Part shown: in pieces, positions 21,406 to 62,611 of the stretch
How positions within the stretch are numbered: position 1 is the stretch's first letter
How the letters are laid out: every line of letters begins with the position of its first letter
Assembly (NCBI RefSeq): GCF_022751215.1
Contig: NZ_JAICDG010000001.1
Location: 744,001-808,000, forward strand
Length of the DNA stretch: 64,000 nt
Direction of reading: 5' to 3'
Origin: Actinomadura terrae
Lineage (GTDB): Bacteria > Actinomycetota > Actinomycetes > Streptosporangiales > Streptosporangiaceae
Notes under the pieces: generated by a model
Seen by the model: only the letters and a program-made list of their open reading frames with translations
What the model was told of the DNA's origin: nothing
The model's database searches: none
Made by a program: the position numbers and the translations under genes

Positions 21406-22755
21406 ATGCCGAGCGTGCTCGCGCCGCCGCCGGAGGGCAGCGGCCTGAAGGCGGTCCCCGGCGTGCCGGGCATCCCCTACATCGGCAACACGTTCCAGGT
21501 GATGCGGCGCCCCTTCCACCACGCGCGCCGCCGCTACGAGGAGTTCGGCCCCGTGGCGTGGGGGTGGCTGCTCGGGCAGCGGACGGTCACCGTGCAGGGC
21601 CCGGAGGCCGCCGAGGTCGTCCTGGTCAACCGGGACAAGGCGTTCGCCAGCGGCGCCGCCTGGAGCTACTTCATCGGCCCGTTCTTCTCGCGCGGCATGA
21701 TGCTGCTGGACTTCGAGGAGCACCTGCACCACCGCCGGATCATGCAGCAGGCGTTCACCCCGGAGCGGCTCCGCTCCTACCTGGACGTGATGGCGCCCGG
21801 CATCGTCCGGGGCGTGAACGCGTGGGAGCCCGGCCCCGCCTTCAAGGTCTACGACCACCTGAAGCGCCTCACCCTCGACCTCGCGGTGGACACCTTCATG
21901 GGCGTCGAGCTGGACCCGGCCGAGCGGGCGCGGGTCAACGGCGCGTTCATCGCCGCCGTGCGGGCGGGGACGGCCTATGTCCGCTTCCCCGTCCCCGGGC
22001 TGCGCTGGCACCGGGGGCTCCAGGCCCGCCGGGTGCTGGAGGAGTTCTTCCGCCGCCACCTGCCCGCCAAGCGCCGCGACGGCGGCGCGGACCTGTTCGC
22101 CGCGCTGTGCGCCGCCGAGACCGACGACGGCCACCGGTTCACCGACGACGACGTCGTCAACCACATGATCTTCGTGCTGATGGCGGCGCACGACACAACC
22201 ACGATCACGCTGACGACGATGGCCTACCACCTGGCGAAGTTCCCCGAGTGGCAGGAGCGCCTGCGCGAGGAGTCGCAGGCCCTCGGCACGTCCCGTCCCG
22301 GATACGGGGATCTGGACGCGCTCACCGGCATCGACATGGTCATGCGGGAGTCGCTGCGGATGGTGGCGCCCGTCCCGGCGCTGCCGCGCAGGGTCGTCAA
22401 GGACACCTCGATCCTCGGCTTCCACATCCCGGCGGGCACGACCGTGGTCGTCCCGATGCTGACCAACCACCACATGGCCGACTGGTGGCCGGACCCCGAG
22501 CGGTTCGACCCCGAGCGGTTCGCGCCCGACCGCCGCGAGGACCGCGTCCACAAGTACGCGTGGTCGCCGTTCGGCGGCGGCGCGCACAAGTGCATCGGCC
22601 TGTACTTCGCGGGCATGCAGGTCAAGACGATCATGCACCAGGTGCTGCTGCGGTACCGGTGGAGCGTGCCGGCGCGCTACGAATGGCCGCTGGACACCTC
22701 GTCGCTGCCCTCACCGAGGGACGGCCTGCCCGTCCGGCTCTACGAGTTGGAATGA
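21406..22755 (+). CDS. Cytochrome P450
   Basis: 449 residues from an ATG at 21406 behind GGAGGG. All hallmark motifs are present: the oxygen-binding I-helix AAHDTTT, the ExxR motif in MRESLRM, the PERF-type segment, and the heme-binding loop FGGGAHKCIG with its cysteine near residue 395. The proline-rich start PGVPGIPYIGN is typical of class I bacterial enzymes related to the CYP51/CYP120 branch. Monooxygenase requiring ferredoxin partners that are not encoded nearby. Substrate unknown; the adjacent acyl-CoA-synthetase-like fusion hints at a lipid. Confidence 0.93.
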   Translation: MPSVLAPPPEGSGLKAVPGVPGIPYIGNTFQVMRRPFHHARRRYEEFGPVAWGWLLGQRTVTVQGPEAAEVVLVNRDKAFASGAAWSYFIGPFFSRGMMLLDFEEHLHHRRIMQQAFTPERLRSYLDVMAPGIVRGVNAWEPGPAFKVYDHLKRLTLDLAVDTFMGVELDPAERARVNGAFIAAVRAGTAYVRFPVPGLRWHRGLQARRVLEEFFRRHLPAKRRDGGADLFAALCAAETDDGHRFTDDDVVNHMIFVLMAAHDTTTITLTTMAYHLAKFPEWQERLREESQALGTSRPGYGDLDALTGIDMVMRESLRMVAPVPALPRRVVKDTSILGFHIPAGTTVVVPMLTNHHMADWWPDPERFDPERFAPDRREDRVHKYAWSPFGGGAHKCIGLYFAGMQVKTIMHQVLLRYRWSVPARYEWPLDTSSLPSPRDGLPVRLYELE

Positions 22756-22795
22756 CCAGTGCCGTTGGGATGACCCAGCGCTGTTGGAATGTCTA
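22744..22795. repeat. Stop-spanning tandem repeat after the P450 gene
   Basis: The last bases of the P450 gene including its TGA (TTGGAATGACC) recur as TTGGGATGACCC and TTGGAATGTC, with TGA at 22753, TGA at 22771 and TGT at 22790. The array fills the gap to the convergent lhgO stop. Confidence 0.7.
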
Positions 22796-24022
22796 GAGCT
22801 GGTCGACGATGTGCTCGGCGATCGCGAGTGAGGACGTCGCCGCCGGGGACGGGGCGTTGCGGATCGTCGTGACCGGGCCGCGGCGGCCGATGCGGAAGTC
22901 GTCGACCAGGGAGCCGTCGGCGTCCACGGCCTGCGCGCGGACACCGGCGGGCGCGGGGACCACGTCGTCCACCGTCAGCTCCGGGACGAACGCCCGCGCC
23001 TCCGCCACGAACGCGCGCCGCACCGCCGACCCGTACAGCTCCCGGGCGCCGGTTCGCCAGTGCGCGCGCGCCAGGCGGCGGAACCCCGGCCAGCGGAGCG
23101 TCTCCCACACGTCCGCCGGACGGACGTCGCGGCGCCGGTACCCCTCCCGCGCCAGCGCCAGGACGGCGTTCGGGCCCACGTCCACGCCGCCGTCCACGCG
23201 CCGCGTGAAGTGCACGCCGAGGAACGGGTAGCGGGGGTCGGGCACCGGGTAGATGAGGCCGCGGACCAGGTCCGTCCTGGACGGGACGAGCCGGAGGTAC
23301 TCGCCGCGGAACGGGATGATCGCGGGCGCGGGGGAGTCGCCCGCCAGCCGCGCCACCCGGTCGGACTGGAGCCCGGCGCACACCACCAGCCGGTCCACGA
23401 CCAGCTCACCGGTGCGGGAGATGACCCTGACCCGGTCGCCCGCCGGACCCGCCGGGCGCAGCCGGACGACCTCGAAGCCCAGCCTGATCTCGCCGCCGCC
23501 CTTGCGGACGTCGTCCGCGAACGCGCGGGCCACGGCGGTGAAGTCGACGATCGCCGTGGTGGGGGAGTGCAGCGCGGCGACCCCGGCGGCGTGCGGCTCG
23601 ATCTCGCGCAGCCCGGACCCGCTCAGCCTGCGCAGGCCCGGCACGCCGTTGGCCGTCGCGCGGCGCTCGATCTCCTGCAGCGCGGCGATCTCGCGGGTGT
23701 TCCGGGCGACGACGACCTTGCCGCACTCCTCGTAGGGCAGCTCGCGGTCGGCGCAGTACTCGCGGAGGAGCCCGGCTCCGCGCCGGCACAGCGTCGCCTT
23801 CAGGGACCCCGGCGCGTAGTACAGGCCCGCGTGCGCGACGCCGCTGTTGTGGCCGGTCTGGTGGGCGGCGACCCGGTCCTCCTTCTCCAGGACCGTCACC
23901 TTCACGTCCGGACGCGTCTCGATGATCCGGCGCGCGACGGCCAGCCCGAGGATGCCCGCGCCCACGATCCCGACCGTCGCCGTCCCCGCCGCTGACTCCG
24001 CCGCACCCGCTGACTCCGCCAC
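22793..24022 (-). CDS. lhgO: L-2-hydroxyglutarate oxidase
   Basis: 409 residues, FAD-dependent oxidoreductase of the DAO fold. The N-terminal dinucleotide-binding loop VGIVGAGILGLAVA, the HNSGVAHAGLYY segment and the C-terminal TIRNAPSPAATSSLAIAEHI are characteristic of LhgO, which oxidises L-2-hydroxyglutarate to 2-oxoglutarate, passing electrons to the membrane quinone pool. GTG start at 24022; the first 14 residues are an AESAG-type repeat that may be dispensable. Convergent with the P450 gene. Confidence 0.9.
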   Translation of the reverse strand: MAESAGAAESAAGTATVGIVGAGILGLAVARRIIETRPDVKVTVLEKEDRVAAHQTGHNSGVAHAGLYYAPGSLKATLCRRGAGLLREYCADRELPYEECGKVVVARNTREIAALQEIERRATANGVPGLRRLSGSGLREIEPHAAGVAALHSPTTAIVDFTAVARAFADDVRKGGGEIRLGFEVVRLRPAGPAGDRVRVISRTGELVVDRLVVCAGLQSDRVARLAGDSPAPAIIPFRGEYLRLVPSRTDLVRGLIYPVPDPRYPFLGVHFTRRVDGGVDVGPNAVLALAREGYRRRDVRPADVWETLRWPGFRRLARAHWRTGARELYGSAVRRAFVAEARAFVPELTVDDVVPAPAGVRAQAVDADGSLVDDFRIGRRGPVTTIRNAPSPAATSSLAIAEHIVDQL

Positions 24023-24054
24023 ACCCGCACCCTATGCGGGGCGGTGCGCGAAGG

Positions 24055-24246: not shown

Positions 24247-24367
24247 CCCTGCACCTCCGAGGGCTCTCAACGGGGAAACGGCCACCGCACCCCGGTCGTT
24301 CCGCGTCCGGCCGTCAATCCACGATATATCTCGTATGCAAGCGGTGGCAGGTGTCAAGGGACGGGTG

Positions 24368-25171
24368 TCAGATACGGAGGGAGAGCTGGCCGCCGCCGAG
24401 GGTGCGCAGGACGTCCGCGTGGAGCTTGCCGTTGGTGCACACGACGCTGCCGCCGTCGCACCCCGGGACGCCGGACAGGTCGGTGAACATGCCGCCCGCC
24501 TCCTCCACGATCACCTGGAGCGCCGCGAGGTCCCACAGCGACACCTCGGGTTCGGCGGAGATGTCGGCCGAGCCCTCGGCGACCATCATGTGCGACCAGA
24601 AGTCGCCGAACGCGCGCGTCCGCCACACCTCGCGGGTCAGGTCGAGGAACCGGTCGAGGCGGCCCTGCTCCTCCCAGCCGCTCAGGCTGGAGAACGACAG
24701 CGACGCGTCCGACAGGTCCGTCACCGCCGAGACGTTCATGCGGGTGGCGCGGGTGAGGCTCCGGCCCGTCCAGGCGCCGCCGCCCCGGGCCGCCCACCAG
24801 CGCCGGTTCAGCGCGGGCGCCGACACGACCCCGACGACGATCTCGTCGTTCTCGCGCAGCGCGATCAGCGTCGCCCACACCGGGACGCCGCGGACGAAGT
24901 TCTTCGTGGCGTCGATCGGGTCGACGATCCAGCAGCGGTTGCCGTAGCCGGTGCTGCCGAACTCCTCGCCGACCACCGCGTCCCGTGGGCGGGCCCGCTT
25001 CAGCGTGCCGCGGATCTGCTCCTCGACGCTGCGGTCGGCGTCGCTGACCGGCGTCAGGTCGGGCTTGGTCTCGATCTCCAGATCGAGCGCCCGGAAGCGC
25101 TTCGTCGTGATGTCGTCGGCCCCGTCCGCCAGCACATGCGCGAGACGCAGGTCATCGGAATAGCCCGCCAC
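24368..25171 (-). CDS. hisN: Histidinol-phosphatase, inositol monophosphatase family
   Basis: About 267 residues. Metal-binding motifs of the inositol-monophosphatase fold are present: GEEFG, WIVDPIDATKNF and, near the C-terminus, SLWDLAAL. The segment ETKPDLTPVSDADR and FVRGVPVWATLIAL closely match actinobacterial HisN, which dephosphorylates L-histidinol phosphate in histidine synthesis; other inositol-phosphatase substrates cannot be excluded. Start taken as GTG 25171; TTG 25180 in the same frame is possible. It is divergent from the coiled-coil gene starting at 25298. Confidence 0.9.
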   Translation of the reverse strand: MAGYSDDLRLAHVLADGADDITTKRFRALDLEIETKPDLTPVSDADRSVEEQIRGTLKRARPRDAVVGEEFGSTGYGNRCWIVDPIDATKNFVRGVPVWATLIALRENDEIVVGVVSAPALNRRWWAARGGGAWTGRSLTRATRMNVSAVTDLSDASLSFSSLSGWEEQGRLDRFLDLTREVWRTRAFGDFWSHMMVAEGSADISAEPEVSLWDLAALQVIVEEAGGMFTDLSGVPGCDGGSVVCTNGKLHADVLRTLGGGQLSLRI

Positions 25172-25297
25172 GCCGGGCAACGCTACCCTGAGCGCGCCGC
25201 GCGCCGACACACGTACCCATGCGGTTCCGGCTTTTCGGTCGTCTCGGTGGGCGCGCCGCGGCGGGTCCGGCGGGTGCCGGGATGGGAGCATGGGGCC

Positions 25298-26149
25298 ATG
25301 GCGCACGACCTTCCCGGGTGGGTGGCCGAGCTGACCGACCCGCGCCGGGCCCAGACGCTCGACGAGCTCGCCGACCGCCTCGTCCCCCTCGCCGAGCACG
25401 CCATCGACGTGTCCCGCCGGTTGCAGTCGCAGCTCAACGAGCTCAACGACCCGTTCAAACGGGAGGCGCTGTACGGGCGGGTGGAGCGGCTCAAGGCCCG
25501 CGCCGGGGAGGCCCTGGAGGAGATCACGGCGGAGATCGCCGCGTCCGGGGAGGAGCGCATGGAACGGGTCTGGGCCGACTGGGCCGAGCGCGCCGACCCC
25601 GGCGACCGGGCCGAACGCGAGCGGGAGCTGCGGCGGCGCCTCGACCGCGACGTCGTCCCGGTGCTGTCCAAGCAGCAGCAGGACGTGGCGGAGCGGGTCG
25701 CGGCGCGCACCTCCGGCGCTCTGGAGGAGGCCACGCAGACACTCCTGACCCGCGTCGAGGAGCTGGCCAAGGCGGTGACCGACCTGATCCACGAGGTGCT
25801 GCCGCTGGCCCGCGAGGGGCTGTCGCTGGCCAGCCGCATCTCGACGCTGTCCAGCCACGCGCGCAAGGCGGGCCGGGGTCCGATCCCGGACGAGCTGAAG
25901 GGCGCCGGTGCCGAGACCGCGCGGGCCTTCGACGAGGCCGTCGCCCGGCTTGAACTGGAGTGGGCCGCGCTCGGCGCCCGCTCGGCCAGCGTCCGGGCCG
26001 CGCTGCGCGGCGCGGAGGAGAGCGCGTTCAGCCAGGTCACCGAGGAGATGACCCGCTGCGTGGAGGAGCTCGCGCCCGAGCACGTCAAGGCGCTGAACGA
26101 GGCCGAGGCCCGCGCACGGACGCTGTTCGGCGAGCCGTCCCCGGACTAG
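25298..26149 (+). CDS. Coiled-coil protein of unknown function
   Basis: 283 residues, highly charged (Glu/Arg/Ala) and almost entirely predicted alpha-helical, with heptad-like runs through residues about 35-170 and 220-275. It has no signal peptide, membrane segment or catalytic motif. ATG at 25298 with GGGAG 13 bases upstream. Divergent from hisN and convergent with the flavoprotein gene. I do not recognise a family. Confidence 0.75.
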   Translation: MAHDLPGWVAELTDPRRAQTLDELADRLVPLAEHAIDVSRRLQSQLNELNDPFKREALYGRVERLKARAGEALEEITAEIAASGEERMERVWADWAERADPGDRAERERELRRRLDRDVVPVLSKQQQDVAERVAARTSGALEEATQTLLTRVEELAKAVTDLIHEVLPLAREGLSLASRISTLSSHARKAGRGPIPDELKGAGAETARAFDEAVARLELEWAALGARSASVRAALRGAEESAFSQVTEEMTRCVEELAPEHVKALNEAEARARTLFGEPSPD

Positions 26150-26210
26150 CCCTGTTTGGTGACGGCCCTGTTAGCTGGCCGACCTGTTAGCTGACGGCTC
26201 TGTTAAGTGA
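26150..26210. repeat. Stop-spanning 16-bp tandem repeat after the flavoprotein gene
   Basis: Read on the minus strand, the gene's end including TAA (26205-26203) is repeated at exact 16-base intervals: TAA at 26189 and 26173, then AAA at 26157. The consensus unit is about AGCTAACAGG plus six bases. The array abuts the stop codon of the convergent coiled-coil gene. Confidence 0.8.
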
Positions 26211-27708
26211 CAGCCTGGGGGAAACTGAACAGGCGGTTCGGGTCGTAGGCGGCCTTCACCTTGGCGAGGCGTTCCAGGTTGGGGCCGTAGTAGGCGCGCG
26301 CCCAGCCCTTCAGGCCGCTGTCGATGTAGTTCACGTAGGCGGTGCCGCCGAGGTGGGGTTCCATCGCGCGGTGCGTCGCGTCCAGCCAGGCGGGGTCGGG
26401 CGCGAGGTACTGGACGCAGAACAGCGCCGCCCGGTGCGGGAACGCGGTGTCGCCCGGACGGACCCGCCCCGCCGCCCCGCCCAGCGCGTCCATCAGCACG
26501 GACCGGTCGGCGACGTCGTTGCCCGCCTCCAGCCGCCGCAGCAGGACGGCGATCGCCGCGTCCGGCAGCGGACGGTACGCGACGTGCGACTTGCCGCCGT
26601 AGTCCGTCCGTGGGAAGGCGCCGCCGGGACGCAGCCCCGGGAGGGTGCCCTGGCCGTGGCACTGCTCGATGGTCTGCCCGGAGCAGCCGCCCAGGAGCCG
26701 CACCGCGTCCATGTAGGGGCGGCTCCGCGCGCTGGTCGAGACGGGGTCGGCGCCGATCGCGGCGGTCAGCCGTCCGATGTGGCGGTCGGCGTTCGCGAGC
26801 GCGAGCCCCGCGATCTCGACGGTCGGGGTCGGCCCGTCGGGATCGCTTTGGAGCTGAAGGGACGTCCAGACGTCGTCGGGCGCGGTCCGGGTCCATCCCT
26901 GCCAGCCCCGGATCACCTCGGCGGCGCGCGACCAGGGCCAGCTCAGGAAGAACGGCGTGACGTCGTGCACCTCGTGCGTGCGGAACGTGAACGAGACCGC
27001 GGCGCCGAAGTTCCCGCCGCCCCCGCCCCGGCACGCCCAGAACAGGTCGGGGTCGCGGTTCGCGTCGCAGGTCCGGACGCGGCCGTCCGCCGTGACGAGG
27101 TCGACCGACTCCAGCACGTCGCAGGTCAGCCCGTACGCGCGGGACATCGACCCGATGCCGCCGCCCAGCGTCAGGCCCGCCACCCCCACGGTCGGGCAGC
27201 TTCCCGCCGGGACGCCCACGCCCCGCGCGGCGAGCCGGTCGTAGAGGTCGATCAACCGGGTGCCCGCGCCGACGGTCGCGCGCCCGCCGCCCACCGTGAC
27301 CGAGTTCAGCGGCGAGACGTCGACGACCAGGCCCGGGCCCGTGGACCAGCCCGCGTAGCTGTGGCCGCCGCAGCGCATCGCGACCGGGATCTTCCGTGCG
27401 GCGGCGAACGCCAGGCAGGTGCTCACGTCGGCGGGCGTCTCGCAGTAGGCGATCCCCTGCGGCCGCCTGGAGTCGTACCGGGGGATGTAGAGGCGGCGCG
27501 CCTCGTCGTAGTCGTCGTCGGTGGGGCGGACGAGCCGTCCCTTCAGGTCCTTGGGGAGCGCGTTCCAGTCGGCGGGGGTCGCCGTGGCGGCGGGACGGGC
27601 CGCCTGCGTGGGCTTGGCCCTCGGTTGGGGTTTGTCGCCGTCCGAGCATGCCGCCGACGCGGCGAGGGGAGCCAGGACCGCCGCCTTGAGTACCGTCCGC
27701 CTCCGCAT
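26203..27708 (-). CDS. Tat-exported FAD-linked oxidoreductase, BBE type
   Basis: 501 residues. It starts MRRRTVLKAAVLAPLAASAAC: a twin-arginine signal ending in a lipobox-like cysteine, so it is likely folded in the cytoplasm, exported by Tat and lipid-anchored. The FAD-binding 4 domain (about 60-230) has the histidine of CGGHSYAG and the cysteine of GSCPTVGVAG, the two residues that bind FAD covalently in berberine-bridge and gluco-oligosaccharide oxidases. The C-terminal BBE segment (NPD-like AYDPNRLFSFPQ) is present. It likely oxidises a sugar or alcohol, producing hydrogen peroxide. The ATG overlaps the upstream kinase stop by one base (TGATG), so the two are translationally coupled. Confidence 0.9.
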   Translation of the reverse strand: MRRRTVLKAAVLAPLAASAACSDGDKPQPRAKPTQAARPAATATPADWNALPKDLKGRLVRPTDDDYDEARRLYIPRYDSRRPQGIAYCETPADVSTCLAFAAARKIPVAMRCGGHSYAGWSTGPGLVVDVSPLNSVTVGGGRATVGAGTRLIDLYDRLAARGVGVPAGSCPTVGVAGLTLGGGIGSMSRAYGLTCDVLESVDLVTADGRVRTCDANRDPDLFWACRGGGGGNFGAAVSFTFRTHEVHDVTPFFLSWPWSRAAEVIRGWQGWTRTAPDDVWTSLQLQSDPDGPTPTVEIAGLALANADRHIGRLTAAIGADPVSTSARSRPYMDAVRLLGGCSGQTIEQCHGQGTLPGLRPGGAFPRTDYGGKSHVAYRPLPDAAIAVLLRRLEAGNDVADRSVLMDALGGAAGRVRPGDTAFPHRAALFCVQYLAPDPAWLDATHRAMEPHLGGTAYVNYIDSGLKGWARAYYGPNLERLAKVKAAYDPNRLFSFPQAVT

Positions 27709-29288: not shown

Positions 29289-29652
29289 GCAAGGGACGAT
29301 ACCGACGTCCACCCAATACCGGGGCGTACTGGCAGTCCGGGCGGACGAATAGTGCGGGTGGGGCGACGCTTAAGGCAAAGTCGGCGATCGGAGCAGTGCG
29401 GCAGTTGAGAGGGGGCGGTGCTCGTGCGGAGAGCGGCCGCCGGAACAGTCCGGCGGCCGGAGGCTAGGCAGTGTTATAGAGTCCCCGTCCACGTCCCTCG
29501 ACTGGCGGTTCGGGACGTGACCGTGCCTTCGGCGGGCGCGGAATCGCTTCGCGATCTTCCCCGTGGGGCTCGCCTCCGGCATCGTCCCACCGCTCGGCTA
29601 CGCACTCGCGTGATGGCTGAGGCCCCTTGAAACACGCCCTAGGCGCCGTCGG
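29289..29652. other. Intergenic region with a strong hairpin (29434-29459)
   Basis: No supported gene between the kinase start and the rsgA stop. An 11-base perfect stem (CGGCCGCCGGA / TCCGGCGGCCG, loop ACAG) sits at 29434-29459 and may end the aroA-rsgA transcript; no T-tract follows. A second small hairpin, AATCGCTTCGCGATC, is at about 29541-29555. An AT-richer patch around 29464-29484 (GTGTTATAGAG) could hold a promoter. Confidence 0.45.
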
Positions 29653-31987: not shown

Positions 31988-32030
31988 GCTCACAAGGTTA
32001 TCGGCACCGGCCCCGGCGCCGGGCTGACGC

Positions 32031-32130
32031 GCGACCCCGTGCCGCGTCAGCCCGGCGCCGTCTCGGCCGGGCGCCGTCTCGGCTGGGCGCCCTCTCACCT
32101 CGGTGCCGTCTCGGCCCGGCACCGTCTCAG
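32031..32130. repeat. Stop-spanning 16-bp tandem repeat after the CHRD gene
   Basis: On the minus strand the last bases of the CHRD gene, GGGCTGAGACGGTGCC, are followed by five more copies at exact 16-base spacing. The stop position reads TGA (32129), CGA, TGA, CGA, CGA, TGA (32049). The array fills most of the gap before aroA. Confidence 0.85.
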
Positions 32131-33533
32131 CCCAGGAACACGTAGTCGGCCCTGTAGGGGACCTTGGCCAGGGGCGTGGCCGCCGGGTCGCACGCTCCGG
32201 ACGGCGCGACGCCGCCGACGGTGTTCAGCCGGAGGATCTGCGTGGTTCCCGACAGGAGCCCGTCGCCTGTCGGGCTCGCGTCCAGGACGAGTTCGGGGAT
32301 GTTGCCCGCGCCGTTCGGCGTCTTCGTGACGGCCTTGCCCGTCACGGCGCTGCCGTCGTCGGCGACCCACTGCGGCGGCCCGGCCGGTCCCGGCCGCGCG
32401 AACGTGTGCCGGATGCCGCCCTCCAGCACCGCGTCCACGCCGTCCTGGGTGAACGCGTAGCCGCCGGACGGCTGCGCCGTGCAGCGGTAGACCTGCGCGC
32501 CCGCCACGACCCGCCTGGTGAAGGCGCGGGCCGGGCGGTCCGACGCCGGGGCGAGCTGCCCGCGCACCGCGCCGCCGGGGAACTCGCCGGTGTGCAGGTT
32601 GGTGTAGAAGCCGCTGGGCCCCCGCGCGATCCGATCGGCGGCACCGGGCGCGACCCGCGTCACCCCAGCAAGGCCGGTGATCGGCGCGGGCAGCCCGGAC
32701 GGTGCCGCGAACAGGTCCGCGACCACCGCGCCGTTGCGTCCCCGCGCGCCCTCGTGGACGTGCCCGAGCGTCGGCGGCGCGATCGACGACCACGTGAACC
32801 CCCACGCCAGCAGCCCGTCGCGGGCGCGGGCGAACCCGGTCGCCTGGCCGTCGGGATCGCCGGTCGCCTTGCCGTCCGCCGCCGGGACCTCCTGCGCGCC
32901 GTCCGCGAGCGACCGCAGTTCCGGGGACGCCGCCCCGTTCAGCACCCCGTTCAGGTCCACGGGACGGTTCAGCTTGTGCAACTGCCCCCGGACGGCCCCA
33001 CCCGGCCGGTCGCCGGTGTGCAGGTTGGCGTAGAGGCCGCCAGGGTCGTCGCGGAGCCGGTCCAGCGTGGCCCTGTCGGTGATCCGGACGGTGCCCGTCA
33101 CGGCCCTCGCCGTTTCCGGCAGCGTCCCGGCGAAGAGCGGGACCTTGACGGCGCCGTTCGTCCCGGCGGCGCCCAGGTGGAGGTGCCCGGCGGTCGGCGC
33201 CGTGATGTCCTGCCAACGCAGCGCGTACCAGAGCCGATCGCCCTGGACGCGCAGCACCGCCACGGCCCGCCCGTCCCGGTCGCCCACGGCGTTCCGTCCA
33301 TCGGTAGCGTTCTGCTCGTGCGCGGCGTTTCCGTTGTGCGCGGCGGGCCCGCCGTGGGCGACCGGGACCTCGTTGGCGCCGCTCAGGCTCGCGGCCAGGA
33401 AGATCGTGCCGTCCTGCTTCGCGGGGGCTTTCGCATGGACGCCACCGGTCATAGCGGCGGCGGCCACGGTCGCCCCGGCGGCGATGAGAGCGGCGGCGGA
33501 GACCGCCGGGACCGCGATTCTACGAATGGACAT
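32127..33533 (-). CDS. Secreted protein with two CHRD domains and a DUF3455-like C-terminus
   Basis: 468 residues with a Sec signal peptide (about 1-28, ending VAAAAM). Two CHRD units (about 45-185 and 205-325) each show the pattern [12 protein letters not shown] / [12 protein letters not shown] followed by [17 protein letters not shown] / [17 protein letters not shown]. The last third ([14 protein letters not shown]...) resembles DUF3455. CHRD domains occur in secreted or cell-surface proteins, mostly of unknown function. The promoter at 33577-33605 matches the one before the neighbouring ECF sigma gene, so it is probably a direct target of that sigma factor. Confidence 0.88.
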
Positions 33534-43482: not shown

Positions 43483-43779
43483 ATGAGCTGTGGCAACCAC
43501 CACGAGACCCCGTGCGACGAGGTGCTCGCGCGGGTGTACACCTATCTTGACGGCGAACTCGATCAGGGTGGCTGCGGCGAGGTCCGCGAGCACCTCGACG
43601 AGTGCGGCCCCTGCCTGCGCGAGTACGGGCTGGAGGAGGCCGTCAAGAAGCTGGTGAACAAGTCGTGCGCCTGCGAGCAGGCCCCCGACGACCTGCGCGC
43701 CAAGGTCCTCGGCCGCATCGAGGAGATCTGCGGCGAGATCAAGACCTCCTCCGAAGCGGGCACGTCCGGCACCGCTTGA
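43483..43779 (+). CDS. rsrA: Redox-sensing zinc anti-sigma factor RsrA
   Basis: 98 residues, ATG behind GGAGGGTGAG. Contains the ZAS motif HLDECGPC (H37, C41, C44) plus C3, C11, C31, C62 and C64; C11 with the ZAS cysteines is the redox switch in Streptomyces RsrA. It binds SigR when reduced and releases it on disulfide formation. Confidence 0.95.
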   Translation: MSCGNHHETPCDEVLARVYTYLDGELDQGGCGEVREHLDECGPCLREYGLEEAVKKLVNKSCACEQAPDDLRAKVLGRIEEICGEIKTSSEAGTSGTA

Positions 43780-43824
43780 TCGGCACAGTCTGATCAGCGC
43801 CGCCTGACCGGCGCTGCCTGACTA
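43769..43824. repeat. Stop-spanning 14-bp tandem repeat after rsrA
   Basis: TGA codons at 43777, 43791, 43805 and 43819, exactly 14 bases apart. Surrounding units are GCACCGCTTGATCG, GCACAGTCTGATCA, GCGCCGCCTGACCG and GCGCTGCCTGACTA. The first TGA is the rsrA stop. All four copies keep TGA although the rest diverges. Confidence 0.9.
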
Positions 43825-45090: not shown

Positions 45091-45562
45091 CCGCGCCCCG
45101 CACTATGCCCCCCACCCCGCACCCCGCAGCCCGCCCCGCAGCCCGCCGCGCACCCCGCATCCGTCCGTCCCTCGGCGCCGCGCACCCGCGCTCCGCACCC
45201 GCGCTCCGCACCAGGCCGCGCCGGGTCGAGCACCCCGCGCTCCGCGCCGCACGTCCGGCGCGTCCTGCGCCGAGTCCGGGCGCTCCTCAACTGCTCTCCG
45301 GCCGCTCACGGGTGCTTCCCCGAGCGCTTTCGGCCGACCTCTCCGGCGGATTCTGACTGCGATTGTGACTGCCCGTGACGATGCACGTGCATTCGGTGTG
45401 CGCAAAAACGTTCGCGGGCAAACGAGCTCTACCTTTCCGGATGGACAATTGATCACGTGAGGTGACGATTGGTTCACGCTTTGCTCACGATTCTCCGCAT
45501 GCCTGTGTGGGTCGGGTCGGGCGCGTTAGGCTTGAGCCGAAATCAGCGACGGGAGCACGTGC
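45091..45562. other. Intergenic, low-complexity then AT-richer promoter-like region
   Basis: Bases 45100-45260 are short CCCCGCA/CGCTCCGCAC repeats of no clear coding value. From about 45356 to 45500 the sequence is AT-richer (CAAAAACGTTCGCGGG, GGACAATTGATCACGTGAGG) and probably holds the promoter for the small gene at 45563 or the HD genes. Confidence 0.45.
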
Positions 45563-47179: not shown

Positions 47180-48537
47180 CCCGGCCCCCCATGAGCGGTA
47201 CCCAGATGCGGCCCCGTGAGCGCGCCGCGTGGCAGACCATCGACTCCGGTCAGCTGCTGCTGATCGCCACCGCCGGCCTGTTCGTGATCGTGGCGATCAC
47301 GCAGGTCGCCGCCGTCCGGCTCGTCCAGCCCGACATCGCGATCATCTTCGGGGTGCTGATCGCGCTCGGCGAGCTGTTCCGGATGGTGATGCCCGGCAAC
47401 CGGGAGGTCGCGCCCATCGCCAGCGCGGGCGCGATCGGCTACGCGATGCTGGTCGGCGTCGGCCCGGAGCACGCGCCGCCGCACGCGCCGCTCGGGGTCG
47501 AGGCCGCGACGCACTCCCCGCTCCAGGTCGTCGCGGTGACCGCCGCCGGGATGGTCGTCGGCTCGCTGCCGCACATCGCGGTCGGGCGCTCGCCGCGTCC
47601 GGAGGCGATGGCGCGGCGGCTGTTCACCGTCGCCGTCGTGGCGCTGTGCTTCCGCCCGCTGGTCTCCCTCCACCTGCCCTGGCAGCTCCTGCTGCTGCTC
47701 ATGGGCGTCGTCGTCGTGCTCTCCTGCTGCACGGACGTGGTGATCGCCGCGATGATCCGGGCAGAGGCCGTCCGGGTCAGGTTCGGGATCGCGTTGCGCG
47801 ACGAGCTCGACGCGAAGATGGCGCTGTGCGCGGCCACCAGCGCGACCGCGATGCTCATCGCGGTCGCGACCACGGCGATGGGCGAGGCCGCGCTGCTGAT
47901 CTTCACGGTGCCGATCCTCGTCACGCAGTTCGCGTTCCGCCGGTACGCGGGCATCCGCGCGACCTACCTCCAGACCGTCCGCGCGCTGTCGCGGGTCACC
48001 GAGGTCGGCGGGTACGTGGAGGCCGGGCACTCGCACCGCGTCTCGAAGCTCGCGGTGTCGATGGGCCGCGAGCTCGGCATGTCCGAGGAGGAACTGCTCG
48101 AACTGGAGTACGCGGCGCTCATGCACGACATCGGGCAGCTCTCTCTCGGCGACCCGATCCCCGGCGGCGCCACCGTGCTCGCCTCACCCGCCGAGCAGCG
48201 CCGCATCGCCGAGCTCGGCGCCGAGGTGATCAAGCAGACCGGGGTGCTGGACCGCGTCGCCCACATCGTCCAGCTCTCCTCCCACCCCTACCGGACGGGA
48301 CACGAGGCCGCCCCCGGGGACGACGCCGGCACGCCGGTGCCGCGCCCCGTCCCGCCGCCGCTCGCGGGCCGGATCATCAAGGTCGCCAACGCCTACGACG
48401 ACCTCGTCGGCGACTCCGCCGACCGCGACCGCGGCGTCGCCGTCCTGGACCGGCTCCGGATCGACTCCGCCGCCGAGTACGACCCGACCGTCGTCGAGGC
48501 CCTGAGCCGCGTCGTCGACCGCCGCACGCGCCTGTAG
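47176..48537 (+). CDS. Second membrane HD-domain protein, degenerate GYP
   Basis: 453 residues from GTG 47176 (overlap GTGA with the previous stop; ATG 47191 is an alternative). Seven or so membrane helices (about 20-265) and an HD domain: HSHRVSKLAV and MHDIGQLSLGDP. The GYP region reads SSHPYRTGH, so the GYP triad is lost and activity is doubtful. Adjacent paralogue-like pair, perhaps acting as active and regulatory partners. Followed by a long stop-spanning array. Confidence 0.85.
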   Translation: MTRPPMSGTQMRPRERAAWQTIDSGQLLLIATAGLFVIVAITQVAAVRLVQPDIAIIFGVLIALGELFRMVMPGNREVAPIASAGAIGYAMLVGVGPEHAPPHAPLGVEAATHSPLQVVAVTAAGMVVGSLPHIAVGRSPRPEAMARRLFTVAVVALCFRPLVSLHLPWQLLLLLMGVVVVLSCCTDVVIAAMIRAEAVRVRFGIALRDELDAKMALCAATSATAMLIAVATTAMGEAALLIFTVPILVTQFAFRRYAGIRATYLQTVRALSRVTEVGGYVEAGHSHRVSKLAVSMGRELGMSEEELLELEYAALMHDIGQLSLGDPIPGGATVLASPAEQRRIAELGAEVIKQTGVLDRVAHIVQLSSHPYRTGHEAAPGDDAGTPVPRPVPPPLAGRIIKVANAYDDLVGDSADRDRGVAVLDRLRIDSAAEYDPTVVEALSRVVDRRTRL

Positions 48538-48790
48538 CCCGCACGCGGCTGTAGCCCGCACGCGCCTGTAGCCCGCACGCGCCTGTAGCCCGCACACGGC
48601 TGTAGCCCGCACACGGCTGTAGCCCGCATGCGCCGGTAGTCCGCACGCGCCGGTAGTCCGCACGCGCCGGTAGTCCGCGGGGCGGTAGTCGGCAGGACGG
48701 CGTCGTCCGCAGGGTGGTTGTCGTGCGCGGGGCGGCTGTAGTCCGCGGAGCGGTTGTGGTTGCGGTGGCGGTTCGCGGGCGGTCTCTCTG
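48523..48790. repeat. Stop-spanning 17-bp tandem array after the second HD gene
   Basis: Unit CGCACGCGCCTGTAGCC, first copy 48523-48539 containing the gene's TAG (48535). Nine 17-base units run to 48675, then a 15-base unit, and progressively diverged copies continue to about 48790. All first ten copies keep TAG; flanking bases drift from CGCGCCTG to CGCCGG and GGGGCGG. Confidence 0.9.
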
Positions 48791-50564: not shown

Positions 50565-50765
50565 CCGGGCCAGAAGCGAGGACGCAGGCGAGCACTCAGC
50601 ACGCCGGGGACACAGGTCAGAGCACCGGGGCGTAGGCCTGTCGCCAGGGTGCAGGGGTGCAGGTCACAACGCGAGGGCGTAGTTCGGTCGCCAGGACGTA
50701 GGGGAGCAGGCCAGAACGCCAGGGCGTAGGCGGTCGGGTTAGAACGCCAGGGCGTAGGTGAGCAG
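50565..50765. repeat. Diverged stop-spanning repeats after the GNAT gene
   Basis: Read on the minus strand, the GNAT end CTACGCCCTGGCGTTCTAA recurs about six times at 28- and 19-base intervals (for example CTACGCCCTGGCGTTCTGG, CTACGTCCTGGCGACCGAA, CTACGCCCTCGCGTTGTGA). It fills the gap to the convergent biotin carboxylase gene. Confidence 0.8.
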
Positions 50766-51290
50766 GTTGAGGCCCGGTTTCGGTGCCCAGTCGCGTTCGG
50801 GCGTCCGGACGAACCCCATCCGCTCGTACATGCGTTGCGCGGCGCGCATGTTCGACATCGTCGACAGCCGCAGCCCCACGAGCCCCGCCGCCCGCGCCCG
50901 GTCGGCGCAGGCGCGCACCAGGGCCGCGCCCACGCCCATCCCGCGCGCCCGCTCCAGGACGGCGAGGATCCGGAACTCGCCCTCGTCCGGCCCCGCCAGT
51001 TCGGCGTAGGGGCTGCCGGGCGGGCAGTACGCGATCGACCCGGCCAGCTCCCCGTCGACTTCCGCGACCAGCAACTCCGCCTTCGCGGCCCAGCCGGCGG
51101 CATCGCGGAGCCTGTCCACATACGACGACTCCGCCGCGATGAGCCCGCTGCCCACATATACCTCGACGGTCAGCTCGCCGATCCGCTCGTACTCCTCCGC
51201 CCGCGCCGCCCGCACGGTGACCCGCTCGCCCACCCGCACATCCTCTGTCCGCTGGGAGGCCGCCGACGGCGCCTCCGGTTCGTTCTCCAC
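50739..51290 (-). CDS. GNAT-family N-acetyltransferase
   Basis: 183 residues from GTG 51290, one base after the YoeB stop (TGAcGTG). The acetyl-CoA loop is ILAVLERARGMGVGAALV and the C-terminal strands include MYERMGFVRTPERDW. Possibly co-transcribed with the toxin-antitoxin pair. Longer in-frame starts overlap yoeB and are unlikely. Substrate unknown. Confidence 0.86.
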   Translation of the reverse strand: MENEPEAPSAASQRTEDVRVGERVTVRAARAEEYERIGELTVEVYVGSGLIAAESSYVDRLRDAAGWAAKAELLVAEVDGELAGSIAYCPPGSPYAELAGPDEGEFRILAVLERARGMGVGAALVRACADRARAAGLVGLRLSTMSNMRAAQRMYERMGFVRTPERDWAPKPGLNLLTYALAF

Positions 51291-51883: not shown

Positions 51884-51957
51884 GGGTCCTGCGCGCGGTG
51901 TCGGCTCGTGCGCGGTGTCGGATCTCGCGCAGCGTCGGGCCTTGCGCGGTGTCAGGT
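51884..51957. repeat. Stop-spanning 17-bp tandem repeat after the lipoprotein gene
   Basis: On the minus strand, TGACACCGCGCAAGGCC (with the gene's TGA at 51954) is followed by copies at exact 17-base spacing: CGACGCTGCGCGAGATC, CGACACCGCGCACGAGC, CGACACCGCGCGCAGGA. The stop is not kept in the copies (CGA). Confidence 0.85.
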
Positions 51958-52764
51958 GAGGTCGCGGCAGGAGGATTCGCCGGGGAGCAGCGGGCGCACG
52001 TGGACCGTGTAGGTCTTGCCCTGGCTGCGCCAGCCGACGTCCGGACGCGAGGCGGGCACTTTGTCCGCGGGAACCAGGGTGCAGACGCCGCCCGGCACCT
52101 GCTCGCCCTTGCCGAGCGGGGACAGCGGCCACTTCCTGGCCGTCCCGCTCCCGGGGTTCTCGATCGCGAGGACCGCGACCCGCGCCGGCGCGTACGGCCT
52201 GCCGGGGGATGCCAGGTCGCCCGCGGGCCAGCGCCGCGGGTCCAGGCGCTCGCGGAACCGCACCGCCGGGTCCGACTGCGCCTCAGGTTGGATGATCTTG
52301 GTCTTGGCCTGCCCCATCGTGAACTCCAGGACGATGGCGTCCATGACGCGGCTCGGGCCGCTCGTGTGGGAGCGGCCGAGCCCCGCCTTGCGGGCCTCGT
52401 CCAGCAGCCGCTGGAGCGCCTCGGGTTTCAGGCGGTACTCCCTCGCCTTTCCCTGGGACGCGGCGACGGCGCGGCCCGTCGAGTACAGCGAGAAGTCGGG
52501 GAGCGTCCCAGGGCCGCCCTTTCCGGCGAAGCCGCCGGTCTCGCGCCAGCGGAGCACGAGCCGTTCGGCGGGGGAGTTCTCGGCGGGGGACGCGGTCGTG
52601 GGCGACGGCGCGGGCGCCGGCGAGGTGCTCTGGGACGAGCCGGAAGGCGGCTTGGGAGAAGCGAGGGAATGCGGGGGCTTGCCGGAGTCCCCGTCACAGG
52701 CGGTGAGCGCGCTCGCGCAGGCGAGCGTCAGCACCCAGCTATAGCGTGCGTACGGGCCAGCCAT
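51952..52764 (-). CDS. Putative lipoprotein of unknown function
   Basis: 270 residues from ATG 52764. The signal sequence YSWVLTLACASALTAC ends in a lipobox (LTAC), so it is probably anchored outside the membrane by lipid. A Pro/Ser/Thr linker (about 28-70) precedes a domain with VLRWRETGGFAG and ends with PGESSCRDL. No catalytic motif. Unrelated to the downstream toxin-antitoxin genes by spacing. Longer in-frame starts lack coding character. Confidence 0.78.
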   Translation of the reverse strand: MAGPYARYSWVLTLACASALTACDGDSGKPPHSLASPKPPSGSSQSTSPAPAPSPTTASPAENSPAERLVLRWRETGGFAGKGGPGTLPDFSLYSTGRAVAASQGKAREYRLKPEALQRLLDEARKAGLGRSHTSGPSRVMDAIVLEFTMGQAKTKIIQPEAQSDPAVRFRERLDPRRWPAGDLASPGRPYAPARVAVLAIENPGSGTARKWPLSPLGKGEQVPGGVCTLVPADKVPASRPDVGWRSQGKTYTVHVRPLLPGESSCRDLT

Positions 52765-52929
52765 GAGCGTTGGACGAGCGGAGCCGCCCCCGGGTTCCAC
52801 GTGCCGAAATCTCAGTGCCGAAAACCCCGCCGAAGACCCGTGCCGAAAGCCCCGTGACAAAAACGAGGCCCGAAGACTGTGGATTCCAGCGCGGGACCTC
52901 GGCCGCGCCCGCCCGCTAGTGTGCGGCTC

Positions 52930-53655
52930 GTGAGCGTCATCGTGGTTTCCGGTACCTGTACGGGGGTCGGCAAGACCGTCGTCACCGCCGCGCTGGCCGC
53001 CGTGGCGGCCGCCCGGGGCGCGCCGGTCGCCGTCGTCAAGCCGGGCCAGACCGGCGTCGTGGAGGGTGAGCCCGGCGACCTCGACGAGGTGGCGCGGCTC
53101 GCCCGGGTCTGCGACCTGCACGAGTTCGCCCGGTTCCCCGATCCGCTGTCACCGGCCGCGGCGGCGCGGCGCGCGGGCGTCCCGCCCGTCCGGTTGCCGG
53201 ATGTGGCCAAGCGCGTCCAGGACCTGTCGAGCGGGCACCGGCTGGTGCTGGTGGAGGGCGCGGGCGGGCTCCTCGTCCGCTACGACGAGGAGGGCACCAC
53301 GATCGCCGACCTCGCCCGCTGGCTCGGCGCCGCCGTCGTCGTCGTGACCCGTCCGGACCTCGGCACGCTCAACCACACCGCGCTCACCCTGGAGGCGATG
53401 GCGCACCGCGGCGTCCAACTCGCGGGCGTGGTCATCGGCGCTTGGCCGGACGAGCCCGACCTCGCCATGCGCAGCAACGTCCGCGACCTGGAGACGATCG
53501 CCGCCCGCCCGCTGGCCGGCGTCCTGCCGTCCGGCGCGGCGGCCCTGGACCCGGCCGAGTTCCTGGTGACCGCCCAGCGCGGCCTGGCACCGTCCCTCGG
53601 CGGCTCCTTCGACCCCGCCGCCTTCCGCACCTCCGTCCAGCCCGAAGGCCACTAG
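52930..53655 (+). CDS. bioD: Dethiobiotin synthetase
   Basis: 241 residues. The Walker A loop is VSGTCTGVGKT, where a Cys replaces the more common Gly. VAVVKPGQTG and VEGAGGLLVRYDE match the diaminopelargonic acid and Mg/ATP sites. Converts 7,8-diaminopelargonate, CO2 and ATP to dethiobiotin. GTG 52930 selected; GTG 52921 is also in frame. bioF is 1.6 kb away on the other strand, separated by uma2-like and dasR genes. Confidence 0.9.
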   Translation: MSVIVVSGTCTGVGKTVVTAALAAVAAARGAPVAVVKPGQTGVVEGEPGDLDEVARLARVCDLHEFARFPDPLSPAAAARRAGVPPVRLPDVAKRVQDLSSGHRLVLVEGAGGLLVRYDEEGTTIADLARWLGAAVVVVTRPDLGTLNHTALTLEAMAHRGVQLAGVVIGAWPDEPDLAMRSNVRDLETIAARPLAGVLPSGAAALDPAEFLVTAQRGLAPSLGGSFDPAAFRTSVQPEGH

Positions 53656-58207: not shown

Positions 58208-58220
58208 CGCGGGACCGGTT

Positions 58221-59800: not shown

Positions 59801-60316
59801 GTGACGAAGCGTCCGTTCACCGTGCAGGCAGCCGCCGCCCTGGAGGCCGCGGAGGGCCTCGCCGCCATGGGTTTCGGGGTGTACACCGGCATCGAGACGG
59901 TGGCCGGCTCCGCCGTCGACCCCGTCAGCGCCGTCGGGGTCACCGTGCTCGCCCTCGTCGGCGGCATCGCCATGCTCGGCTGCGCCCGCGGGCTGCTGCG
60001 CGCCGACCAGTGGAGCCGCGCCCCCACGGTGCTCACCCAACTGTTCGCGCTGCCCGTCGCGTGGTCGCTGTGGCAGAGCGAGCGCCCCGAGATCGCGCTC
60101 CCGCTGGGCGCCGCCGCCGTCCTCACACTGATCACGGTGCTCAGCCCGCCCAGCACCGCCTGGCTTGTCGAGGTCCCCGAACAAGACTCGGACGACTCAG
60201 ACGACACAGCCCAGGGCGGCGGGGACGCCACGGAGGCCACGGACGGCAAAGAGAACGCGAGCGGCGCGGACGCCGCCCCGCGCTCCGGTAGCCGCTCGCC
60301 ACGCTCCGGCCGCTGA
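59801..60316 (+). CDS. Integral membrane protein
   Basis: 171 residues: four hydrophobic segments within about 5-120, then a strongly acidic tail (EQDSDDSDDTAQGG). No motif; corresponds by position to the membrane protein Rv3217c of M. tuberculosis. GTG 59801. Convergent with the sigF-like gene; a long repeat fills the gap. Confidence 0.8.
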   Translation: MTKRPFTVQAAAALEAAEGLAAMGFGVYTGIETVAGSAVDPVSAVGVTVLALVGGIAMLGCARGLLRADQWSRAPTVLTQLFALPVAWSLWQSERPEIALPLGAAAVLTLITVLSPPSTAWLVEVPEQDSDDSDDTAQGGGDATEATDGKENASGADAAPRSGSRSPRSGR

Positions 60317-60495
60317 TTACCAGGTACCGGTAGCCGCTAACGCGCTAGGGCGCGGATCACCGGGTTCCGGCGGTCTCCACCGCGCTTACGGCCGCCGATC
60401 AGCAAGCTCCGGCGGCCGCTAACGGGCTCCGGCTGCTGGTTACCAGGTTCCGGCGGCCTCTATCGTGCTTTGGCCGCCGATCACCCGTCTGGTCA
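60314..60495. repeat. Stop-spanning array between the membrane protein and sigF-like genes
   Basis: Read on the minus strand from the sigF-like stop TGA (60495), units of mostly 20-21 bases begin at stop triplets: TGA, TGA, TAG, TAA, TAG, TGA, (TGG at the seventh), TGA, TAG, TAA (60319). Nine of ten triplets are stops, using all three kinds, while flanks vary around CGGCGGCCGGAGC. The array ends at the plus-strand gene's TGA. Confidence 0.85.
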
Positions 60496-61305
60496 TTCGT
60501 CGGCGGTCAGGCCCTCGCGCAACTGGGCGAGCGTCCGGGCCAGCAGTCGCGACACGTGCATCTGCGAGATTCCGAGCTCGGCCGCGATCTGCGACTGCGT
60601 CATGTTGCCGAAGAAGCGCAGCAGCAGGATCTTCTTCTCGCGGGCGGGCAGCTTCTCCAGCAGCGGCTTGAGGGACTCGCGGTACTCCACGCCCTCCAGC
60701 GACTCGTCCACCATGCCGAGCGAGTCCGCCACGGCGGGGGCGTCCTCGTCGCCGGAGTCGGGGGCGTCGAGGGACACCGTGGAATAGGCGTTCGCCGACT
60801 CCAGCCCCTCCAGCACCTCCTCCTCGCTCATCTGGAGGTGCGCCGCCAGTTCGCTGACCGTCGGGGCACGCCCCTCGCGCTGCGCGAGGTCGCTGATCGC
60901 CTTCGTCAGCGACAGCTTCAGCTCCTGAAGCCGCCGCGGGACGCGCACGGCCCAGCCCTTGTCGCGGAAATGCCGCTTGATCTCGCCGACGATCGTCGGC
61001 GTCGCGTAGGTCGAGAACTCCACCCCGCGCCCGAGATCGAATCGGTCGATCGACTTGATCAACCCGATCGTCGCGACCTGGATCAGATCGTCCAGCCACT
61101 CGCCCCGGTTGCGGAAACGGCGGGCCAGATACTCCACCAGCGGAAGGTGCAGCTCCACGAGCTGGTCGCGAATCCGCTGCCGCTCCGGGTCGCCCTCCGG
61201 CAGCTCCGCCAGACGCTCGAACAACGCGCGCGCCCGGGCGCGGTCGGGGACCGCGCTCTCGGACCGCTCGTTGCCGGAGCCCGCGATCGTCGTCTTCTCC
61301 GTCAC
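60493..61305 (-). CDS. sigF: SigF/SigB-family stress sigma factor
   Basis: 270 residues. Regions 2-4 of the sigma-B/F/G type: LVEYLARRFRNRGEWLDDLIQVA, FSTYATPTIVGEIKRHFRD, VPRRLQELKLSL, LLLRFFGNMTQSQIA and GISQMHVSRLLAR. GTG 61305 overlaps the RsbW-type stop (GTGA). Controlled by the anti-sigma kinase upstream. Several paralogues exist in actinomycetes, so the exact name is a family-level call. Confidence 0.9.
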   Translation of the reverse strand: MTEKTTIAGSGNERSESAVPDRARARALFERLAELPEGDPERQRIRDQLVELHLPLVEYLARRFRNRGEWLDDLIQVATIGLIKSIDRFDLGRGVEFSTYATPTIVGEIKRHFRDKGWAVRVPRRLQELKLSLTKAISDLAQREGRAPTVSELAAHLQMSEEEVLEGLESANAYSTVSLDAPDSGDEDAPAVADSLGMVDESLEGVEYRESLKPLLEKLPAREKKILLLRFFGNMTQSQIAAELGISQMHVSRLLARTLAQLREGLTADE

Positions 61306-61709: not shown

Positions 61710-62100
61710 TGCAGCGGTTTCCTCGGTCACGTCACTCCCTCGCAGGATGGTCCTGCTGCTTCCGAAACTACCGCCTTCCGGCCCCACTGCGAGACTCCGC
61801 GCGCGCGTGTTTGGCGGGTTTAATCGCTGTGTTCATTGCTTTGCCCTTGGCATCGGCGCCGAGATCCCCCCTTCGGCGGCTGCGAGATCGACGTGTGGCG
61901 CCGTCAGCGTGCGGGTTCGCCTTCGCGGGCCTGGGGGCTCGGTTGGGGGACGGTTGTGATGTGTGTGGCTGGTGTGGTGCGGCTGGCGGCGTCTGTTGGG
62001 GATGTCACGTTTGCGTGGGCGGAGGGGTGTCCGATCGTTCAGGACGCTCTGGACGGCGGCCCGTCCTGGCCGGTTGGCCTGCTCCAATAGTCTGGAACGT
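61710..62100. other. Intergenic region between divergent sigF/rsbW and GNAT genes
   Basis: I see no gene. The left part (61750-61880) should hold the rsbW-sigF promoter, but no GTTT-N15-GGGTA element is obvious. The TAGTCT at 62088-62093 lies seven bases before the GNAT GTG, which would suit a leaderless transcript. Confidence 0.4.
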
Positions 62101-62571
62101 GTGATTCGAACTGCTACAGCCGATGACGTCCCCGCGATCCGGCAGCTGATCCGCGACCTGGCGGAGTACGAGCGGGCCCTGCACGAGGTGAAGGTCACCG
62201 AGGAGCAGCTGCGCGCCGGCCTGTTCGGGGACGAGCCGCGCGTGTTCGCGCACGTCGCCGAGCATGAGGGACGGGTCGTCGGGTTCGCCATGTGGTTCCT
62301 CACCTTCTCGACGTGGGAGGGCGTCCACGGGATCTACCTGGAGGACCTCTACGTCGACCCCGGCGTCCGGGGGCACGGGTACGGGAAGGCGCTGCTCACG
62401 GAGCTGGCGCGGGTCGCCGACGAGAACGGGTACGCGCGGGTCGAATGGTCTGTCCTGAAGTGGAACACCCCGGCCATCGGCTTCTACGAGTCCCTCGGCG
62501 CCCGCCCGCAGGACGAGTGGCAGGTGTACCGGCTCACCGGGGACGCTCTCACCAAGGTCGCCCGCGCCTGA
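62101..62571 (+). CDS. GNAT acetyltransferase, diamine-acetyltransferase-like
   Basis: 156 residues. The order YLEDLYVDPGVRGHGYGKALL and WSVLKWNTPAIGFYESLGA follows spermidine/spermine-type (SSAT) acetyltransferases. Acetylates an amine, perhaps a polyamine. GTG 62101, possibly leaderless. Followed by an 11-base stop-spanning repeat and a terminator. Confidence 0.88.
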   Translation: MIRTATADDVPAIRQLIRDLAEYERALHEVKVTEEQLRAGLFGDEPRVFAHVAEHEGRVVGFAMWFLTFSTWEGVHGIYLEDLYVDPGVRGHGYGKALLTELARVADENGYARVEWSVLKWNTPAIGFYESLGARPQDEWQVYRLTGDALTKVARA

Positions 62572-62611
62572 AGCACGCCTGAAGCACGCCTGAGGCACAC
62601 GAAGCACATGA
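62563..62611. repeat. Stop-spanning 11-bp tandem repeat after the GNAT gene
   Basis: CGCCTGAAGCA repeats with TGA at 62569 (the stop), 62580 and 62591, exactly 11 bases apart, then diverged copies (CACACGAAG, CACATGAGG). Confidence 0.85.

Follow-up and report, generated by a model that had tools for sequence, protein, structure and literature searches.

Short tandem arrays that lie behind genes, and in many cases take in the stop codon, recur along a 64,000-nucleotide stretch of Actinomadura terrae DNA (C1:744001-808000, in an 8.96-Mb genome; hereafter the window). The window-type arrays are head-to-tail copies beyond chance, and we consider it probable that they are lineage-specific and minisatellite-like, arising by frequent tandem duplication of 10-20 bp, filtered by selection and tolerated behind genes. 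The stop codon is best read as caught up in the duplication process and not as its target. Direct support comes from the position of the arrays, their spectrum of unit sizes, an excess of homology at the unit ends, the non-conservation at the gene ends compared and the presence of unlike arrays at the same gene in different species.

Arrays were sought with Tandem Repeats Finder (TRF) and with an ungapped self-match scan of our own, an intergenic array being one with a period of 8-60 and a score of at least 16. The main set covers 848 kb of the genome (C1:1-848000) with 666 genes from a purpose-written codon-usage caller, not a curated annotation; missed genes or wrong starts push triplet-period arrays into 'intergenic' DNA. 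Gene identities come from Pfam. Seven Actinomadura samples were compared: the genome itself (the own genome below), its closest relative among those compared (G012), G005, G007, G002, G006 and 28 named loci (27 Actinomadura and 1 Spirillospora). All the named loci surround the gene for an HD-domain protein and are, therefore, not independent genome samples; the nearest named relatives of this protein are Actinomadura, and several genomes of the genus carry an HD protein 85-98% identical to it. A set of 52 more distant loci is mixed, being mostly Streptosporangiaceae and other Thermomonosporaceae, together with metagenome-assembled genomes and four loci named Actinomadura (L099, L100, L104 and L141).

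Chance accounts for very few of the duplications. The nine samples together give 649 kb of intergenic DNA, in which there are 107 perfect tandem duplications with units of 10-20 bp as against about 3 in Markov-shuffled gaps, and 88 perfect two-copy repeats of 11-20 bp as against about 1. Counts for units of 10 to 20 bp are 19, 13, 13, 11, 6, 12, 6, 13, 8, 3 and 3; no perfect intergenic unit measures 21-39 bp, and there is one of 40 bp and one of 56 bp. Perfection as a criterion penalises long units; when degenerate arrays are allowed, the counts still drop after 20 bp, though not to zero. The match extends a mean of 4.1 bases past the two full copies in 43 two-copy cases with a period of at least 13, compared with 0.8 expected. 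This excess favours homology-assisted slippage or flap-type duplication over random joining, and we infer that the enzymology is replication slippage or flap ligation rather than end joining. Ku end joining or a lack of MutS was considered as the cause and set aside: Ku was found in 9 of 9 genomes searched and MutS_V in 1 of 9, and one genome with Ku and no MutS_V match (G024, 65% GC) is almost free of arrays, with 0.8 non-triplet ones per 100 kb, so that neither gene discriminates. Growth by addition of new copies next to the gene was also rejected, adjacent-copy identity being higher near the stop in 23, lower in 20 and equal in 8 of 51 stop-spanning arrays.

Non-triplet arrays occur almost only outside genes and mostly on the 3' side. 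They cover 3.96% of non-coding and 0.36% of coding bases, and the arrays within coding sequence are nearly all triplet-periodic (308/325 in the first 400 kb). Coverage starts to climb about 20 bases before the stop, reaches 7-10% of positions at +10 to +49 and is 4-9% farther downstream; it is 0.2-5% in the first 200 bp upstream of starts. The 848 kb hold 141 intergenic arrays, at 1.29 per kb in codirectional and in convergent gaps and 0.45 per kb in divergent gaps. A stop is included in 23 of the 141 and a start in 3, and the expectation, in a preliminary description of the window, that such repeats would not be equally frequent at start codons is borne out. Its companion claim, that stop ends are richer than other intergenic DNA, is largely refuted, as the rest of the 3' intergenic DNA has arrays at nearly the same frequency. 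Arrays are dense in the window, which has 12 non-triplet ones; 64-kb stretches slid along the 848 kb have 1 to 14. Per 100 kb there are 8.3 non-triplet arrays in the own genome, 3.5-9.0 in the Actinomadura samples, 10.0 in a Nonomuraea stretch (50 kb), 5.0 in halves of two Streptomyces plasmids (100 kb) and none in E. coli K-12 (50 kb), the controls outside the order being small. The Streptomyces value lies inside the Actinomadura range, and these figures do not establish that Actinomadura is set apart by its array density.

Our results suggest the following course of events. A duplication process would make head-to-tail copies of 10-20 bp, in most cases with short homology (a few bases) at the unit ends, and some duplicates would expand to 3-10 copies. 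Purifying selection would purge copies that shift a reading frame or disturb a 5' control region, and the surviving arrays would therefore lie behind genes. A duplication that starts from the last codons and includes the stop would be silent because the first copy still ends the protein; stops would thus be caught in arrays, with no requirement for a triplet period. That all three frames hold stops would be a by-product. It is probably selection, and not a hotspot at gene ends, that causes most of the 3' bias.

The arrays of the window, by position, strand and gene, are as follows.

22746 to 22791, plus strand: 19-bp tandem repeat, about 2.5 copies, over the stop of a P450 gene (21406-22755), in the convergent gap to an oxidoreductase gene; TRF score 64.
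26149 to 26214, minus strand: 16-bp array, 4.1 copies, over the TAA stop of an FAD/BBE flavoprotein gene (26203-27708).
32035 to 32133, minus strand: 16-bp array, 6.2 copies, over the stop of a CHRD/DUF3455 gene (32127-33533).
43767 to 43822, plus strand: 14-bp array, 4.0 copies, over the stop of a zf-HC2 anti-sigma-like (rsrA-like) gene (43483-43779).
45082 to 45158, plus strand: 12-bp array, 6.4 copies, from the end of an epimerase gene (44161-45090), then a 13-bp array (45175-45212).
48522 to 48678, plus strand: 17-bp array, 9.2 copies, over the TAG stop of the HD-domain gene (47206-48537), with degenerate repeats to about 48846.
50613 to 50768, minus strand: 28/47-bp degenerate array behind a GNAT gene (50739-51290), in the convergent gap with a biotin carboxylase gene.
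51893 to 51956, minus strand: 17-bp array, 3.8 copies, over the stop of a gene for a 201-amino-acid protein (51952-52557).
60302 to 60485, no strand assigned: degenerate array of about 41 bp filling the convergent gap between a sigma-factor gene (60493-61305, minus strand) and a gene at 59801-60316 (plus strand).
62565 to 62598, plus strand: 11-bp array, 3.1 copies, over the stop of a second GNAT gene (62101-62571).

The preliminary description had ascribed tandem copies of their own 3' ends to at least ten genes. Nine of the ten named do have an array over or beside the stop; the tenth, a bioD-like gene (52921-53655), has none at the thresholds used. All that its end shows is a resemblance over seven bases, 11 bases apart, followed by a hairpin-like inverted repeat. 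The epimerase is an extra case, absent from that gene list, and the 201-amino-acid protein, which has no Pfam match, is assumed to be the lipoprotein on it. A repeat of about 20 bp had been placed over the stop of the sigma-factor (sigF-like) gene; an array is present there, with a period of about 41 bp, and begins just behind the stop. An 18-bp repeat (23980-24028) sits at the 5' end of the oxidoreductase gene as called and not at a 3' end. The P450 array was seen with TRF only and is unscored by our own scan.

Few of these arrays are found in relatives. Indeed, the nearest relative, G012, is without most of them. The HD array is absent there despite 97.5% protein identity, as is that of the second GNAT gene, and 19 bp replace the 66 bp of the FAD/BBE array between flanks that are 95% identical. 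No array was found at the CHRD end in G012 or G007, at the first GNAT end in G012, G002 or G005, or, with a 17-bp period, at the 201-amino-acid protein end in G012, G007, G005 or G002. The P450 end lacks the 19-bp array in G012, G007, G002, G006 and G005, and in G002, G006 and G005 it has self-matches of period 9 or 39 starting at +5 to +71. Five relatives with a sigma factor 95.9-100% identical have no such 41-bp array, G012 showing a weak 40-bp self-match and G002 an 18-bp repeat of its own over the stop. The anti-sigma stop in G012 carries a different array, with a 10-bp period. The epimerase array may be partly common to the two genomes, as its end in G012 has a 12-bp self-match too (+17 to +101, score 18).

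The wider comparisons agree. Among 137 orthologous ends with at least 30 bp behind them, the own genome has a stop-spanning array at 11 and G012 at 6, and both have one only at the anti-sigma gene, with periods of 14 and 10. Joint ends with G007, G005, G002 and G006 (57, 30, 31 and 40 ends) number 1, 0, 1 and 0; in the G007 case the period is 16 in both, over 160 bp with a score of 147 here and 19 bp with a score of 14 there. For the HD gene, 37 loci have at least 72% identity (own included), and stop-spanning arrays were found in 4 of them and in 5 of 52 others, several of these arrays being weak; the 3 of the 4 that are not the own locus carry arrays unlike ours, one weak. For FAD/BBE, they were found in 2 of 30 orthologs (own included), with unlike units. 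The end-scan behind these two counts omits a 12-bp array at the HD stop of L047, which is visible in a separate HD comparison. At the orthologous ends compared, no stop-spanning array common by descent was found. Hotspot genes were considered as well; over five comparisons, stop-spanning arrays coincide at 3 orthologous ends where about 1.25 would be expected, numbers too small for a verdict. Copy number in the arrays is not the same in close lineages (own genome and G012, a comparison between species only), and some intergenic arrays away from stops are common to these two genomes. Placement on G012 was possible for 50 of the 141 arrays; of 23 non-triplet arrays so placed, 10 are absent, 7 are 'shared', a loose label, and 6 are unclear.

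Is the stop a preferred site? Each non-triplet array in a gap of at most 600 bp was placed at random in its own gap, with a one-period overlap with the stop allowed; triplet-period arrays and arrays in longer gaps are dropped by this test. Stop-spanning arrays, with expected numbers in brackets, were 15/45 (10.6) in the own genome, 7/17 (3.6) in G012, 0/4 (0.1) in G005, 3/6 (1.3) in G007, 4/12 (2.1) in G002, 0/4 (1.1) in G006 and 11/19 (6.3) in the 28 named loci; G024 gave 0/1. Pooled, the seven Actinomadura samples have 40/107 where about 25 are expected, and the 52 more distant loci 12/39 where 14.3 are expected, which makes a modest excess in the genus and no excess beyond it.

The age of the arrays can be set against the divergence of their surroundings. 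Measured against G012, the own genome is 9.7% diverged at third codon positions (176 orthologs) and 8.9% diverged in 3' flanks free of arrays (71 flanks, 7897 columns); 41 flanks with arrays and 10 unalignable flanks were dropped from the latter value, which favours conserved ones. Copy divergence was taken from 7 of the 10 absent arrays, those for which G012 has at most about one unit and the two flanks meet to within 15 bases; the divergence between adjacent copies is 0.29, 0.27, 0.12, 0.17, 0.22, 0.24 and 0.04, or about 20% when pooled. The three absent arrays with poorer placement gave 0.07 (HD), 0.28 and 0.21, and three arrays of equal length in both species differ by 0.00, 0.15 and 0.24. 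Lineage-specific arrays thus do not look younger than shared ones. An error-prone polymerase was rejected as the source, the spectrum of substitutions between copies being the same as that between species (48% transitions). In contrast to the diverged arrays, a perfect 19-bp two-copy repeat (C1:555413-555450, locus L030) is also present in G012, between flanks that are 8-18% different.

Several observations tell against our reading. A copy divergence of about 20%, beside flanks at about 9%, is unexplained by simple recent duplication; the alternatives are a loss of many old arrays from G012 and a divergence of arrays that outpaces that of their flanks. In the seven Actinomadura samples, 52 array starts fall at -25 to +10 of the stop where about 36 are expected. 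The last 30 coding bases diverge by 11.6% at 17 ends with an array here, compared with 7.6% at 135 ends with an array in neither genome (permutation P 0.02), and by 10.8% at 11 ends with an array in G012. The start pile-up and the diverged coding ends are a hint of something special at gene ends in this genus. As for end homology, it is absent from 9 of the 43 duplications, and some of the high values are leftovers of multi-copy arrays.

These observations bear on a rival explanation in which gene ends are mutational hotspots: RNA-DNA hybrids where ribosomes leave the transcript, or termination or fork collisions, would give rise to breaks or gaps, and their repair would duplicate 10-20 bp and raise substitution. 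We think this unlikely, although it would account for array numbers 1.4-1.6 times those given by uniform placement in the seven Actinomadura samples, for the concentration of array starts at -20 to +10 of stops in the own genome (40 in three 10-bp bins), for copies more diverged than array age suggests and for the faster divergence of coding ends beside arrays, where the stop codon differs at 6/17 ends as against 15/135 array-free ones. However, the stop differs at only 1/11 ends with an array in G012, there is no excess in the 52 more distant loci, and arrays away from stops are common. Terminators or promoters occupying the rest of the gap would give the same pile-up, and the two-species gene-end counts, in which convergent gaps are entered from both sides, are inflated by alignment anchoring. 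The HD array and that of one GNAT gene also have low self-divergence (0.07 and 0.04). In its strongest form, the proposal would make Actinomadura gene ends sites where duplications of 10-20 bp form at a high rate and then diverge at two to three times the pace of the intergenic DNA nearby, with 3' ends rewritten again and again, independently in each species, and a repair process with a built-in 20-bp limit; this too we hold to be doubtful. The preliminary description had suggested slippage that begins at gene ends. Slippage-type duplication does fit best, and the process is not confined to stops.

It was also proposed that the copied stops are a selected multi-frame back-up against readthrough or frameshifting. 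Stops are indeed plentiful at array ends: all three frames are stopped within 60 nt at 14/62 of them and at 13/989 array-free ends, and an in-frame stop lies within 20 codons at 25/62 and 205/989, respectively. However, an excess of stops in all frames follows from copying a stop with a non-triplet period. At single genes, retention of the stop triplet can be complete, as the preliminary description had noted for stops kept while their neighbours drift (3/3 later copies in the rsrA-like gene, 8/8 in HD, 2/2 in the GNAT gene ending at 62571 and 2/3 in FAD/BBE), and at others it is poor (2/5 in CHRD, 0/5 in the epimerase and 0/3 in the 51952-52557 gene). Across samples, stop triplets are kept more often than other triplets in the own genome (54/81 against 546/1031) and the 28 named loci (34/61 against 299/732), and less often in G012 (4/19 against 66/121) and the 52 distant loci (21/61 against 505/972). 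With two sets leaning each way, stop triplets are not better kept overall, which tells against the claim of higher retention than in other repeat columns. There is, moreover, no array common by descent at the ends compared and no excess of stop-spanning arrays in the distant loci. Ho and Hurst (2019) saw no compelling evidence that additional stops are under selection in eubacteria (PMC6764699). We regard a selected back-up stop as very improbable. The period modulo 3 was considered as a code in its own right and rejected: the seven Actinomadura samples have 70 stop-spanning arrays, with remainders of 0, 1 and 2 in 18, 18 and 34 of them (P 0.026, one of many tests), and the corresponding numbers in the 52 distant loci are 11, 11 and 11. 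The mild excess of remainder 2 is confined to the Actinomadura samples.

An mRNA 3'-end or terminator element built of repeated units, the other function proposed, would suit arrays that sit just behind genes. The CHRD array is followed by an inverted repeat with 12-base arms (32020-32055), possibly a terminator; the array query matched the opposite strand there at 83%. However, 3' flanks with arrays fold no more stably than ordinary flanks (z-score over the first 70 nt, -0.89 for 46 with arrays and -0.84 for 120 sampled without), and no Rfam match was obtained in window positions 22000-63500. The units of the listed arrays are unlike one another by eye, and they are not conserved at the ends compared, the nearest relative lacking most of them. 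Such an element seems to us highly unlikely.

Among known systems, the arrays come closest to bacterial minisatellites, or variable-number tandem repeats, whose head-to-tail units of about 10-60 bp are mostly intergenic and differ between close lineages. The arrays described here share these features, with variability seen between species; unlike minisatellites, many of them lie at gene 3' ends and include the stop, and perfect units drop sharply above 20 bp. Mycobacterial interspersed repetitive units (MIRUs), one homologous family with units of about 50 bp, are likewise tandem and at gene junctions of a high-GC actinobacterium, whereas each array here resembles its own gene end, units and periods differing between the listed loci on inspection by eye. 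A search of the open-access literature found no description of stop-spanning tandem duplications in actinomycetes. The nearest published parallel found is the tandem repeats of archaeal Borgs (PMC9879509), which are perfect, A-enriched and on extrachromosomal elements, whereas the arrays here, mostly degenerate and rich in GC, belong to a large actinobacterial genome. The intergenic TAACTGA repeats of Beggiatoaceae, as reported, are also tandem and contain stop triplets, with one fixed motif (PMC4679880); no common motif was seen among our arrays.

Duplication followed by selection, as we favour, would mean that a striking stop-codon pattern can arise without selection for the stop. It would also give GC-rich actinomycetes a measurable mutational signature, comprising 10-20 bp units, excess end homology, survival behind genes and repeated origin at the same gene, that could help to identify the responsible repair or replication step. 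If the fast divergence of copies is true, the arrays would be sites of local hypermutation. The modest gene-end excess in the Actinomadura samples, together with the high copy divergence, is worth following.

Other features of the window were observed in passing. The HD gene lies next to another HD-domain gene on the same strand (45875-47179 and 47206-48537), and a weaker second match is found just upstream of the ortholog in 17 of 17 same-genus relatives. Long open reading frames occupy both strands at 24335-26149 (plus) and 24368-26083 (minus); the plus-strand frame is probably spurious because the Pfam match (inositol monophosphatase) is on the minus strand only. Finally, an interspersed repeat of about 180 bp (29460-29640) occurs at no fewer than 40 places in the genome, itself included, the others being 82-90% identical, and at more than 20 places in G012; its single-strand DNA folding is ordinary (z -0.88).

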